11,250 bases of DNA from Nitrospinae bacterium RIFCSPLOWO2_12_FULL_45_22 (GTDB lineage Bacteria; 2-12-FULL-45-22), in assembly GCA_001803565.1 (NCBI GenBank), contig MHDQ01000313.1, forward strand, positions 1-11,250. Reading direction: 5' to 3'. Below, in pieces: positions 2,631 through 8,527 of this stretch. Within the stretch, counting starts at the first letter, position 1; every line of letters begins with the position of its first letter. A program made the position numbers and the translations under genes. The notes under the pieces are model-generated. The model did no database searches, was not told the DNA's origin, and saw only the letters and a list, made by a program, of their open reading frames with translations.

Positions 2631-2659
2631 AGAGATAAACAAGGTATATGAAATAGCGG

Positions 2660-2687
2660 TTGCAAGTTTTAATGGAGTCGATAAAAT
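2660..2687 (+). promoter_or_regulatory. Weak candidate promoter for the restriction operon
   Basis: TTGCAA (2660-2665) and TAAAAT (2682-2687) are spaced by 16 bases and resemble sigma-70 elements. The predicted transcript start would fall around 2694, inside the apparent GAGAGG ribosome binding site (2692-2697), which makes this promoter doubtful or its message poorly translated. Confidence 0.25.
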
Positions 2688-2705
2688 AATCGAGAGGCGT
2701 TTACT

Positions 2706-3683
2706 ATGAATATCTATGAGAAACTGACACGTTTTGTTAAGCAGGTTTTTAAAACCACTGTGGAAATATTCCTTGAAGCTTTGAAACTCAGTCCCAACGC
2801 TCAAGGATATGTCAGCGGCTCAATAACTGAACTTCTGCTGAAAAAGAAACTTGAGGAAGAATATGGGTTTGAAATCAAAAGAATTAGAGAGAAATGGGAA
2901 GGAAGAAAGCACCTGCGCCATCATGGCGATTTTTATTTCAGAAAGCCTGATTCTTCATATTGGTATGTAGTTGAGTCAAAAGGGGTTAAATCTAATTCGG
3001 AAAAATGGCATAAGCTTTACAATTTCGATAACCTAAAAAATTTTTTGATCACTCATTCAGATAAAATTCCATGGATAGATAATACACTTAATGTAGAGGA
3101 GCAAGTAACCAACTGGATTTACACCAACCTACCTAAGTTCCGAGATGAATATTTGTCTAATTTCTACGAGTACGAAGAAGTTCAGAAATACAAGTCTAAA
3201 CGCGAAACAGAGAAAGCCAGAGATATTGCTGCATTGCGTGATTATACCCGCAACCAAATCAATGATATGATTGAAGAAAGGTTGAATTATGTGATGTCAA
3301 AAATAAAAGTCTTGGAAACTCACTTTGTTTCAGGCCGATCTGGAATAAGTGAACGAACGCAGGCAACTCCACGCAAGGACGAATTCAATGTTATCGCCAT
3401 TAATATTGTCCTTCGGTACCCCGAGCATAAATTTCTATTTGCCAACCCCAAAAATCTAGAGTCATCAGGAGACGACCCCAACCATTTACAGCAAAACTAT
3501 ATCATGGGTTTTATTTTCACCGGCGAACAAGGTAATCCAACTTTGACGATTACGGACGATTGGTATGAAGATTTAAAAGATGTTTATGATACATTAGATG
3601 CTGAAGATTCAGTGGATGAAGACGACATGCAAATTGATAACAGGCATATTGTTCTGGACGAGGGGGAACAAAATGAGAAGTAA
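2706..3683 (+). CDS. Putative restriction endonuclease, PD-(D/E)XK fold, without helicase domain
   Basis: This 325-residue protein precedes and overlaps the methylase-specificity gene, the position of a restriction subunit. Residues 74-93 form a PD-(D/E)XK-like core: GDFYF with D75, a short loop, then YVVESKG with E90 and K92. A helix containing E42 (GSITELLLKKKLEEEYGFE) lies upstream as in many nucleases of this fold. No Walker A, DEAD box or other helicase motif is present, so it cannot be a type I HsdR translocase. A charged, probably helical middle part (about 160-215) and an acidic C-terminal tail (about 290-325) follow. GAGAGG lies eight bases before the ATG. Base composition is more AT-rich than the flanking genes, consistent with transfer. 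Nuclease assignment rests on the motif and on context; the family name is not recognised. Confidence 0.65.
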   Translation: MNIYEKLTRFVKQVFKTTVEIFLEALKLSPNAQGYVSGSITELLLKKKLEEEYGFEIKRIREKWEGRKHLRHHGDFYFRKPDSSYWYVVESKGVKSNSEKWHKLYNFDNLKNFLITHSDKIPWIDNTLNVEEQVTNWIYTNLPKFRDEYLSNFYEYEEVQKYKSKRETEKARDIAALRDYTRNQINDMIEERLNYVMSKIKVLETHFVSGRSGISERTQATPRKDEFNVIAINIVLRYPEHKFLFANPKNLESSGDDPNHLQQNYIMGFIFTGEQGNPTLTITDDWYEDLKDVYDTLDAEDSVDEDDMQIDNRHIVLDEGEQNEK

Positions 3684-5775
3684 AAAGAGTAAGAAGAACA
3701 TATATAAGCCTGTTACACAACAAGAATGGAAAGTTAAAGAACAGCAACTTCTCTTTTCTGAAGAGAGTTTGCTGCCACAAAACCTACCACACTTAAAAGA
3801 ATTACGCCAAGTACACAATCTCTCAGCCATATTCGATGAATGTCATAATTATATCTATGCTAATGAAGGATTACTCAAGGATAAGATATTTCACGAAATT
3901 GTAAAACTTCTTACCATGAAACTTTATGATGAGCAGAATACTACAGATGGCATTTTGCAATTTGGAATTACTTCAAGTGAATATAGAAGCATACTTGCAC
4001 ATAAACCAGGTAACTTTGAAGTTCGTATCAACAAACTATTCAATACAGTGCGAAATAAGTATCAGTCTTTGTTCTCGGACGATTCACTAAAATTGAAACC
4101 CCTAACGCTTGCTTATATTGTTGGACGATTACAGTTTGTTAACCTCACTCAGATACCCGGTGACATCAAGGGTGAAGCCTTTCAAAAGTTTGTCTATCGG
4201 CATCAACGGGGAGATCGTGGTGAGTTTTTTACTCCATATCCAATTGTAAGATTGGCTGTCGAAATGATGGCTCCAAAACCCAATGAAATGGTCATTGACC
4301 CGGCCTGTGGGAGTGGCGGTTTTCTAATTCAAACCATCTCACATGTTTGCCGAAATAATCCCAATATTGATAGGAGAGGCTACATCCAGAAACGTATTTA
4401 TGGCATTGAGTTTAATCCCGATGTTGCACTATCCGCGATGATTCGACTTGCATTCGAAGGTGGTACAGGCACAGAAATCATTTGTGCAAATGCCTTAGTA
4501 GAAAATGAAGAGTTTAATAATGCTTTTGATGTGGTTCTCACCAATCCACCTTTTGGCAGCAAAGGTAAAATAGAAGAGCAAAAGATTCTCAAATTCTATC
4601 AGTTGGCTCGTAAATGTAATAAATCTCACAAGGGCGATTGGGAAGTGACGAGAAATGTTCTTTCAGGACAATCTCCAGAAATTCTTTTTATCGAGAAATG
4701 TTTGAAGTTACTTCGCCCTGGTGGTCGTATGGCAATTGTCTTGCCAGATGGCTTGCTTCAAAACATTACCAATAGTCATATCAGATTCTGGATCCGTTCT
4801 CAAGCTAAAGTGTTAGGTGTTGTTTCAATTCCACAGGAAGCTTTCGTACCATATGGCACGGGAATCAAGACCTCTCTTCTCTTTTTACAAAAAATGCCTT
4901 CCGATTCAGAAAAAGTATTCATGGCTCAAATACAAAAGATTGGCTATGATGTAAAAGGGCAACCTATTCACAAGAAAACAAACGATGGCAAGATGGTGAG
5001 AGGGGAATCAGGACTACCCATTGTTGATACGGACATAGATGAGATTATTTCAGAATACAACAGGTTTAAAAATGGCGAATATGAAATAAATAAGGAAAGC
5101 ATTCACACAGTTCCTGAGAAATCCTTAAATACACGCTTGGACGTACAACATTATAAACTAGAAGATAGAAAGCTTCTTGAAATGTTGCAAGCAAGTGAAG
5201 CAAAACTACTTGGCGAATTAGCAGATATTCTCAAAGAAACCGACGATTTCCGTTTGGCGTCCAATGGCGAAATAAGATATATCGCCATTTCCGATGTTGA
5301 TGCACGCACGATGCAAGTAGTCTCTTATCAAATAATTAAACCACATGAGGCACCATCAAGGGCAACTTACCGTGTACGGACTGGGGACATTATTACTGCT
5401 GTATCTGGTGCAAGCACTGGTACAAAACGACATGCAACCGCATTGATTACCGAGGATGAAGATGGAGCAATTTGCTCTAATGGTTTTGCTGTGCTCCGTA
5501 ATATTCATGGTATAGAACCGTTATTCCTTTTATCATACATGCGTACGGAATATTTTTTGCGGCAGGTTAGACGCTTGATGACGGGTCATGCTATTCCAGC
5601 AATTTCTATTGAAGATTTATCAAAGGTGCTGGTGCTGGTTCCACCAAAAGAAGTTCAGAAGCAAATATCTGATGAAATTGCAAAGGTTTTGTCCATGCGT
5701 AAAGAAGTATTCAAAGTCGGGGGAAGAGTTATAGAAGAGGTTGAGTCATTAGTAGGTAAAATGATTAAAGCATGA
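3673..5775 (+). CDS. Fused type I-like N6-adenine methylase and specificity protein (HsdM-HsdS)
   Basis: The protein (700 residues) modifies adenine N6 in a target chosen by its own C-terminal part. The N-terminal ~480 residues are HsdM-like: YRHQRGDRGEFFTPYPIVRL (about 174-193), S-adenosylmethionine motif DPACGSGGF (209-217) and catalytic NPPF (291-294). From about residue 500 there is one HsdS target-recognition domain: LGELADILKETDDF, then a VRTGDIITAVSGASTG segment and ISIEDLSKVLVLVPP, ending in a helical stretch that resembles the HsdS conserved coil. Ordinary HsdS has two such domains; here there is one, as in half-S proteins that act as dimers. I chose ATG 3673 because AGGGGGAA precedes it; it overlaps the nuclease gene by 11 bases, implying translational coupling. 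A longer frame to 3598 has no ribosome binding site. Confidence 0.88.
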   Translation: MRSKKSKKNIYKPVTQQEWKVKEQQLLFSEESLLPQNLPHLKELRQVHNLSAIFDECHNYIYANEGLLKDKIFHEIVKLLTMKLYDEQNTTDGILQFGITSSEYRSILAHKPGNFEVRINKLFNTVRNKYQSLFSDDSLKLKPLTLAYIVGRLQFVNLTQIPGDIKGEAFQKFVYRHQRGDRGEFFTPYPIVRLAVEMMAPKPNEMVIDPACGSGGFLIQTISHVCRNNPNIDRRGYIQKRIYGIEFNPDVALSAMIRLAFEGGTGTEIICANALVENEEFNNAFDVVLTNPPFGSKGKIEEQKILKFYQLARKCNKSHKGDWEVTRNVLSGQSPEILFIEKCLKLLRPGGRMAIVLPDGLLQNITNSHIRFWIRSQAKVLGVVSIPQEAFVPYGTGIKTSLLFLQKMPSDSEKVFMAQIQKIGYDVKGQPIHKKTNDGKMVRGESGLPIVDTDIDEIISEYNRFKNGEYEINKESIHTVPEKSLNTRLDVQHYKLEDRKLLEMLQASEAKLLGELADILKETDDFRLASNGEIRYIAISDVDARTMQVVSYQIIKPHEAPSRATYRVRTGDIITAVSGASTGTKRHATALITEDEDGAICSNGFAVLRNIHGIEPLFLLSYMRTEYFLRQVRRLMTGHAIPAISIEDLSKVLVLVPPKEVQKQISDEIAKVLSMRKEVFKVGGRVIEEVESLVGKMIKA

Positions 5776-5784
5776 AACCGCCAC

Positions 5785-5879
5785 TTCATATAACACAGCA
5801 TAAAAGGTTCGTGCCTTACGGCACTCACCCAAATTTTTGCTTCGCAAAAACTTCTTTTATGCTGGAAACGTTATGTGAA
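5785..5879. repeat. 95-bp attC-like cruciform at the end of the restriction system
   Basis: Outer arms TTCATATAAC (5785-5794) and GTTATGTGAA (5870-5879) pair in 9 of 10 positions plus a T-G wobble. An inner stem CAGCATAAAAG (5796-5806) pairs perfectly with CTTTTATGCTG (5854-5864). The two stems are separated by 1 base on the left and 5 on the right. The loop holds two further hairpins, GTGCC-TTAC-GGCAC (5811-5824) and TTTTTGC-TTC-GCAAAAA (5834-5850). ATAAC/GTTAT ends and position just after a stop codon resemble integron attC sites (core GTTATGT, consensus GTTRRRY). The inner stem lacks the extrahelical bases typical of attC and the spacers are asymmetric, so attC identity is likely but not certain. 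Confidence 0.5.
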
Positions 5880-5963: not shown

Positions 5964-6248
5964 TTGAAAATAAAGAGCATCGTTTGGTTTAATGACATCA
6001 TTGAGAAACTTATACGCAAACATAATGTTCAACAATATGAAGTCCGAGAGGTTTTGGCCAACAAACCTCATTTCAGGTTTGTTGAGAAAGGACATCGCAC
6101 TAGTGAAAATGTTTATGCAGCACTGGGTAAGACTGATAGCGATCGTTACCTCGTGGTCTTTTTTGTCTATAAAACTGATCAACGTGTCTTAATTCTTTCG
6201 GCGCGGGACATGACAAAAGCAGAAAGGAGACGATATGATAAAACATAA
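5964..6248 (+). CDS. brnT: BrnT-like toxin (RelE-fold ribonuclease family)
   Basis: The 94-residue product has the layout of BrnT toxins, which inhibit translation as ribonucleases. An N-terminal IVWFNDIIEKLIRKHNV stretch corresponds to the family's F-W-D...K...KHGV segment. Then comes a YEVREVLAN helix, a central R-hydrophobic strand (RYLVVFFVYK), and a C-terminal ISARDMT-like segment, here LSARDMTKAERRRYDK, which is the most diagnostic part. TTG 5964 is the start: GGAG lies about eight bases upstream and no ATG is in frame nearby. The end overlaps the antitoxin gene by 14 bases. A perfect 10-base inverted repeat lies inside the gene (6059-6084). Toxin-first order is usual for BrnTA. Confidence 0.8.
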   Translation: MKIKSIVWFNDIIEKLIRKHNVQQYEVREVLANKPHFRFVEKGHRTSENVYAALGKTDSDRYLVVFFVYKTDQRVLILSARDMTKAERRRYDKT

Positions 6249-6501
6249 AAGTTCAGTATCAAAGGCGACAACCTACAAAGAAATTGGCGAGTTCTGGGAC
6301 ACTCATGATTTATCAGAGTTTTGGGATAAAACCAAAGAAACCTCCTTTGAAGTTGATATTGAATCAGAGGTCACTTATTACGCTGTCGATAAGATGCTCT
6401 CGGAGAAAATACAAGCTATAGCTCAAAAACGTGGTGTTACCGCCGACACTCTGATTAATCTTTGGGTTCAAGAAAAACTTCAGGAACAAAAAGCATCATA
6501 A
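6235..6501 (+). CDS. brnA: BrnA/CopG-type antitoxin
   Basis: This 88-residue protein should neutralise the BrnT-like toxin and repress the operon. The segment TYKEIGEFWDTHDLSEFWDKT (about residues 12-32), with the repeated EFWD motif, is typical of the CopG-type antitoxin family paired with BrnT. It is followed by FEVDI and a ribbon-helix-helix-like region in the second half (SEKIQAIAQKRGVTADTLINLW). AAGGAG at 6222-6227 gives a strong ribosome binding site for ATG 6235, inside the toxin gene, so the antitoxin can be made in excess. Family assignment is firm; exact subfamily naming is by context. Confidence 0.8.
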   Translation: MIKHKSSVSKATTYKEIGEFWDTHDLSEFWDKTKETSFEVDIESEVTYYAVDKMLSEKIQAIAQKRGVTADTLINLWVQEKLQEQKAS

Positions 6502-7876: not shown

Positions 7877-8107
7877 ATGAAAGTCAAGACATCTATAACC
7901 TTGTCTGAAGATTTACTGAAAGCGATCGACGAATATGCAGGGGAATACAAAAACAGGTCAGAATTCATCGAAGATGCTGTCCGGGCTTTTATCATACAAT
8001 TGATCCGCAGCCAGCAAGATGCCAGAGACCTTGAGATTATCAATCAGCATGCGGATTATTTAAACCGAGAAGCAGCGGATGTTCTTACCTATCAGGTCGC
8101 TCTGTGA
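7877..8107 (+). CDS. Ribbon-helix-helix (CopG-type) antitoxin
   Basis: The 76-residue product starts with the ribbon-helix-helix fold: strand VKTSITL, helix [15 protein letters not shown], turn [15 protein letters not shown] (to about residue 45). The strand would bind DNA as a dimer, here the gene's own promoter. The helical C-terminal part ([20 protein letters not shown]) is the expected binding region for the toxin encoded next to it. The stop codon TGA overlaps the toxin start GTG (GTGA), implying translational coupling. Gene order antitoxin-toxin and overlap are typical of MazEF-like modules with RHH antitoxins. Confidence 0.85.
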
Positions 8108-8442
8108 AACGTGGTGAATTGTATCGTGTTGTTAACCCTTCAGCCAAGGATCCCAAAAAATCCAGAGTCTTTGTTGTTGTAAGTCGCCAAGTTCTCATCG
8201 ATTCTCGTTTCTCCACAGTCATTTGCGCCCCGATTTATTCAGCTCATGACGGTCTTTCCACTCAAGTCATAGTTGGGGTGGATGAGGGATTGAAGCATGA
8301 TAACACTGTTCACTGCGATGAGCTTGTGAGTTTGCCTAAGTCGCTTCTGACCAACTTTGTCGGATCGCTCTCTCCACAAAAAACCGAAGAGCTTAATAGG
8401 GCTCTAAGTATAGCCTTGGATATTCGGGATTTAAAGGGCTAA
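8104..8442 (+). CDS. mazF: MazF/PemK-family mRNA interferase toxin
   Basis: The 112-residue protein has the MazF signature: [11 protein letters not shown] at the N-terminus, [10 protein letters not shown], the [10 protein letters not shown] strand, and a C-terminal [12 protein letters not shown] segment followed by a helix ([18 protein letters not shown]). MazF toxins cut single-stranded mRNA at short motifs and arrest growth; the adjacent ribbon-helix-helix protein is the antitoxin. The start is GTG 8104, overlapping the antitoxin stop. The stop codon TAA at 8440-8442 lies inside the left core of the attC site that follows, as is common for integron cassette genes. Confidence 0.88.
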
Positions 8443-8527
8443 CAAGTCAGTCAAGCTGACGTCGTGGAGCGTGGTTTGCTTTTTCTGGAGGGACAGCGGT
8501 CGGCGCGGCTGACTTCCGTTGTTATAC
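8437..8527 (+). repeat. Integron attC recombination site following mazF
   Basis: The 91-bp site has full attC geometry. Left core GGCTAAC (8437-8443); 10-base spacer AAGTCAGTCA (8444-8453); stem arm AGCTG-a-CGTCG (8454-8464) with one unpaired A; loop; complementary arm CGGCGCGGCT (8501-8510, two G-T pairs); 10-base spacer (8511-8520); right core GTTATAC (8521-8527). The unpaired base and the 7+10 spacing on both sides equal those of well-known attC sites such as those of aadA cassettes, and AACAAGTCAGTCAAGCTGAC strongly resembles their left half. GTTATAC deviates from GTTRRRY at one position. The site lies at the end of the toxin gene, the expected cassette position. Confidence 0.75.

Follow-up and report, generated by a model that had tools for sequence, protein, structure and literature searches.

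In the DrdI, XmnI and XcmI restriction-modification (R-M) systems, the nuclease is a separate protein, and the methyltransferase (M) is fused to a single target recognition domain (TRD) and works as a homodimer on an interrupted palindrome (PMC3874165). The class is written as a homodimeric gamma-MTase, 2 gammaM~[TRD], in Table 3 of that review, and at the time of its publication in 2013 there was no crystal structure of the M~S homodimer of the class. M.DrdI and M.XcmI are named in the same sense elsewhere (PMC4081073). AhdI, PshAI and BsaBI represent the form with separate M and S, for which the label type IIH is now rarely used (PMC4081073). Engineered fusions of HsdM with half of HsdS dimerise and methylate the palindrome ACCNNNNNGGT (PMC6158711), which directly supports that an M~S architecture can work in the way proposed below.

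The locus described here lies in a stretch of 11,250 nucleotides (the window) from Nitrospinae bacterium RIFCSPLOWO2_12_FULL_45_22. The window is the entire contig C313 of the assembly, so the sequence beyond it cannot be read in the host genome. It contains a gene for a putative restriction endonuclease (R), followed by a gene for a methyltransferase fused to one recognition domain (M~S). We consider it probable that the two genes form a type II R-M system organised like DrdI, XmnI and XcmI, and that an integron gene cassette carries them.

The putative nuclease gene and the fused methyltransferase gene

The features of the two genes are as follows.

2706 to 3683, + strand: gene of R, a putative restriction endonuclease, 325 aa, probable PD-(D/E)XK (E42, D75, E90-x-K92)
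3673 to 5775, + strand: gene of M~S, a gamma-class N6-adenine DNA methyltransferase with one HsdS-type TRD, 700 aa
4297 to 4323, + strand: codons of methylase motif I, DPACGSGGF, aa 209–217, SAM binding (from the sequence)
4543 to 4554, + strand: codons of methylase motif IV, NPPF, aa 291–294, catalytic (from the sequence)
5209 to 5679, + strand: single target recognition domain, aa 513–669 (PF01420), followed by a short C-terminal tail

The two genes overlap by 11 bases (3673–3683). M~S starts with the ATG at 3673; a longer in-frame start is present at 3598, and the relatives start near 3673. An earlier note on this DNA had described the open reading frames, the residues D75 and E90-S-K92 of R and the 11-base overlap, and all of them were found again at the same positions. 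Its statements on the domains were also confirmed. R has no helicase motif, and neither a helicase nor any other Pfam domain was matched in it. M~S joins HsdM motifs (DPACGSGGF and NPPF, within the N6_Mtase domain PF02384, E=4e-38, aa 176–425) to one HsdS-type domain (a single Methylase_S, PF01420, E=4.4e-7, aa 513–669), after which about 30 aa remain. The motif order of M~S, motif I and then NPP(F/Y/W), is that of the gamma class. In the PDB, the N-terminal part of M~S matches HsdM chains and the C-terminal part matches HsdS chains (5ybb_D and 3okg_A). No nuclease domain was matched in M~S with Pfam, and R and M~S are separate frames. A deduction of the half-site from the TRD was dropped, because M.DrdI and the S subunit with the closest solved structure are both too far removed. 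Taken from the sequence, the locus is a real type II restriction-modification pair and is probably functional.

Searches with R, as a single sequence and as profiles built from 6 and from 9 sequences, gave no significant match in Pfam, NCBIfam, PADLOC or the PDB sequences. No relatives of R were found in phage records or in IMG/VR viral contigs. Four residues (E42, D75, E90 and K92) do not vary among nine R proteins, whose identities are as low as 31%. AlphaFold gave a pLDDT of 45.6 for the whole R (5 sequences) and of 54.6 for residues 1–130 (6 sequences). Both low-confidence models contain a helix at about 37–53, a strand at 56–60, a strand at 76–79 just after D75, and a strand that ends just before E90-x-K92. 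The predicted order, helix-strand-strand-strand-helix, is that of a PD-(D/E)XK core. A Foldseek search with the models of R gave nothing at E≤0.001. With VIA-align, EcoRV entries accounted for about half of the weak rows listed, with a Z of only about 3 over about 50 residues, and in several of these alignments the last aligned position is 93 in R as well as in EcoRV. On this alignment, the EcoRV active-site residues D74, D90 and K92 would fall near D75, E90 and K92 of R. This match is at most consistent with a PD-(D/E)XK reading. Because the structure models are poor, the fold assignment rests on the motif and the strand order, and these suggest that R is probably a PD-(D/E)XK nuclease. R extends some 200 residues beyond the catalytic region.

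R might instead be a partner of the M~S methyltransferase that is not a nuclease, for example a regulator or an effector. That R matches no family or solved structure and that its models are of low confidence would agree with such a partner, but the four invariant residues have a spacing and a strand placement like those of PD-(D/E)XK enzymes, and the EcoRV alignments described above point in the same direction. In addition, R is frame-broken and M~S is intact in two related loci (L016:761-1722 and L018:6001-6962), which is typical of restriction genes, although both are draft assemblies in which a sequencing error is possible. A partner of this kind is therefore very unlikely. The earlier note had made its reading depend on R not belonging to a clear non-nuclease family, and the profile search of R matched none.

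Comparison with described systems and search for a translocase

The earlier note knew of no named enzyme with such an arrangement. This was wrong, since DrdI, XmnI and XcmI have been published with the same layout as in the window, that is, a free nuclease gene (in the window a putative one), M and one TRD in one chain, gamma motifs and no translocase. On pDrdI, the source plasmid of DrdI, one of the two strongest N6 methylase genes adjoins a separate S gene (type I). The other encodes a 703-aa fused M~S, which is 24% identical to residues 76–664 of the window M~S (P0002). This 703-aa protein is probably M.DrdI. The gene of R.DrdI was not identified next to it. DrdI differs from the window pair in being distant in sequence (24% to the probable M.DrdI, 23% in the TRD), and the nuclease of the window pair matched no family. 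The window pair is probably of the DrdI-type organisation, with a nuclease that matches no family, and the arrangement is already known and named. A close match to a characterised system, which would have spoken against the reading of the earlier note, was not found at the level of sequence in the searches made here (24% to the probable M.DrdI), but the arrangement itself is characterised.

AhdI (type IIH, 'type 1 1/2') resembles the window pair in its type II-like nuclease, its HsdM/HsdS-like methylase and its one TRD per S. The earlier note had proposed an AhdI-like logic, which stands for the free nuclease, the fused M and S, the one TRD and the absence of a translocase. However, AhdI is not the nearest match, because its M and S are separate, whereas they form one chain in the window (700 aa) and in the complete relatives. 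BcgI-like type IIB/IIG enzymes also have a modification part derived from HsdM/HsdS and no ATP-driven translocation, but in BcgI/BsaXI-like enzymes the nuclease and the methylase are in one chain, and the nuclease of the window is separate. Among the NCBIfam profiles, the closest to the M part and to the TRD part are the MADS methyltransferase MAD2 (332 bits, cut-off 720) and the MADS specificity protein MAD5 (56 bits, cut-off 400), and both scores remain far below these curated cut-offs. The window pair also differs from MADS in that M and S are fused and other MADS genes were not seen beside it. In type I R-M systems, S has two TRDs, in contrast to the one TRD fused to M in the window. A plasmid of Acinetobacter baumannii, pA1296_2 (L044:1514-4881), carries in a row a controller-like HTH gene, an unassigned 386-aa gene and a gene for a 633-aa N6 methylase, which probably represent another system of a free nuclease and a fused methylase.

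No helicase or HsdR was recognised in the window, that is, in the whole contig, and the ResIII matches of the genome are all on other contigs. In the flanks of the relatives, where the open frames were read by eye and some were scanned with profiles, no HsdR was recognised either. A helicase subunit encoded nearby, against which the earlier note had set its reading, was thus not seen in the contig or in these flanks. Elsewhere in the host genome there are HSDR_N matches on C133, C251 and C189, and HsdM-type methylases and helicase genes on C44 and C189, indicating that ordinary type I systems exist in other parts of the genome. These genes raise the question whether the pair is a type I remnant, in which an HsdR encoded elsewhere serves M~S. 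However, C44 and C189 have their own HsdM, the pair is found as a unit in 11 loci, with no hsdR recognised in those of their flanks that were read, and the single TRD is fused to M. We give this explanation almost no weight.

Relatives of the pair and the proposed recognition of the target site

The relatives of R were found by scanning genome contigs with a two-sequence R profile and by whole-genome searches. The profile scan gave six relatives that are 58–93% identical to R, from Chloroflexota (two), Lentisphaerota, Bacillota, Atribacteria and Ignavibacteriota. A further relative with 39% identity is encoded on a 23-kb plasmid of Thermus thermophilus, and three more were obtained from the whole-genome searches. 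In every one of the 11 loci, counting the window, the gene of R comes immediately before the gene of such an M~S. The loci come from at least six named phyla, and in two of them (L014 and L017) M~S is truncated by the contig end. The taxa with the pair include Chloroflexota, Lentisphaerota, Bacillota, Atribacteria, Ignavibacteriota, Thermus and others. The dN/dS, calculated for unsaturated dS only, was 0.09–0.28 for R and 0.16–0.23 for M~S, and these low values show that both genes are kept by purifying selection.

In type I and type IIG systems, M and R remain similar, whereas the TRDs are free to vary. Here, the identity of the TRD to the window went along with that of M in each of the eight relatives compared. 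The identities of TRD and M to the window were 94% and 94% for L015, 87% and 85% for L016, 87% and 83% for L038, and 83% and 75% for L013. They were 48% and 44% for L011, 42% and 43% for L039, 39% and 40% for L043, and 35% and 41% for L018. The divergence of the TRD in step with M suggests that a nuclease with its own DNA recognition holds the specificity fixed. In two loci the divergence is unequal: L018 and L043 are 58–59% identical to the window in R, and only 40–41% in M and 35–39% in the TRD, which is not obviously expected of an R locked to one partner. In the M~S tree, L018 and L043 cluster with L039 (support 100/100), and in the AU test the R data do not reject the grouping of the M~S tree (p=0.16). 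An exchange of partners between R and M~S was hinted at by the identities, but it is not claimed, given this AU test on R.

In the preferred reading, a system of the DrdI/XmnI/XcmI organisation, M~S would homodimerise through the single recognition domains, and the dimer would methylate one adenine per strand of an interrupted palindrome. For the window pair, an M~S dimer on such a site is our best inference. R alone, as a homodimer, would recognise the same sequence, and it would cut the unmethylated copies with Mg2+ and without ATP.

Alternatively, R may have no reading of its own and may dock on the M~S dimer and cut at or near its site, as in a stripped-down type I or BcgI-like system that has been split. 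The close likeness of M and the TRD to HsdM and HsdS, the constant adjacency of the R and M~S genes, and the identities in L018 and L043, where R (58–59%) looks as if it served a diverged partner (35–41%), would all fit a docking R. However, the TRDs are not freely exchanged and track M in every comparison, unlike those of type I and type IIG, the roughly 200 residues past the catalytic region of R leave room for a recognition part of its own, and, at the key branch, one tree shared by R and M~S is not rejected by the AU test. A docking R is unlikely. Slightly less likely again is the fuller form of this proposal, that a nuclease without its own specificity is directed by M~S in a minimal two-chain, ATP-free complex derived from type I, which moves between phyla as an integron cassette.

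The probable integron cassette and its significance

The features of the putative cassette and its surroundings are as follows.

2644 to 5870, + strand: putative integron gene cassette with both genes (from homology limits and core sites)
5788 to 5876, + strand: attC-like site after M~S, an imperfect hairpin with an asymmetric spacer, ATATAAC ... GTTATGT
8437 to 8527, + strand: weaker attC-like candidate, downstream of the gene for the PemK/MazF-like toxin, score 15.2, tentative

In blastn searches of the window against the relatives, only about 2650–5813 aligned, with identities of 94% for L015, 89% for L016 and 81.5% for L038, and the genome of L038 shares only the domain with that of the window. 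The left edge of the cassette carries a GTTA core in L015, L016 and L038 and a degenerate GGTA in the window, where no left attC was recognised. The right core site in the window is CGTTATG. The hairpin at 5788–5876 has a DNA fold z of -5.74, and a score of at least 19 occurred in 1 of 400 Markov shuffles (one strand). The site at 8437–8527 is tentative because 22 of 400 shuffles scored at least 15. Rfam gave no match in the window.

Sites of the same type were sought with a pattern search, since the attC scanner had low sensitivity on the contigs that carry the integrases. The attC type of 5788–5876 recurs beside unrelated genes, on C55 and C211 of the host genome (G000) and once in G454, and the reversed-pattern control gave 0. 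As read by eye, the site on C55 has a small membrane-protein-like gene on one side and a PIN-like gene on the other, the same contig carries an integrase-like gene as well, and the site on C211 follows an NTPase-like gene. In L015, a long hairpin ending in GTTAGGC precedes the pair, and attC-like sites are present downstream of M~S and of a GmrSD gene, as well as close to the left end. Two intact IntI above the TIGR02249 cut-off are encoded in the genome of the window (C243:1188-2132 and C304:4868-5809) and one in the genome of L015, compared with 0 in 14 controls. Since the IntI of the host are on other contigs, the array of the window cannot be joined to an integrase. Further integrase fragments are present in the host genome on C115, C136, C7, C317, C55 and C202. 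These results indicate that the pair sits in an integron cassette, and it appears to move between distantly related bacteria, presumably having been mobilised by an integrase in the past.

Other genes near the pair were also noted. Downstream on the same strand are two toxin-antitoxin pairs, BrnT/CopG-like (5964–6501) and ribbon-helix-helix/PemK-like (7877–8442), which are typical cassette cargo. A gene at 811–1671 encodes a protein in which a DnaQ-like exonuclease domain (RNase_T) is joined with a WYL domain at the C-terminus. In the Bacillota locus (L015:599-9993), the pair is found amid an N6/N4 methylase, a D12 methylase, a PDDEXK_13 nuclease and the GmrSD gene, and with its several attC-like sites this region is apparently a defence array in integron form.

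R-M cassettes in integrons were already known (PMC12444791), and works of 2025 on integrons as defence libraries are cited there. The defence cassettes of Xanthomonas and Vibrio integrons (PMC12444791 and works cited therein) are similar in that defence genes are followed by attC in an integron-bearing genome, but they belong to another gene family, and the hosts of the window pair are uncultured and from distantly related phyla. What is new here is the place of the pair in an integron cassette; the arrangement and R-M cassettes were each known before.

The locus adds an unnamed putative nuclease family, linked to a type I-like fused methylase, to a known type II class. A thermostable enzyme might be obtained from the relatives, one of which is encoded on the Thermus thermophilus plasmid. 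Uncultured bacteria carry this probable DrdI-type system in their integron cassettes, and its DNA is 81–94% identical across distant taxa.
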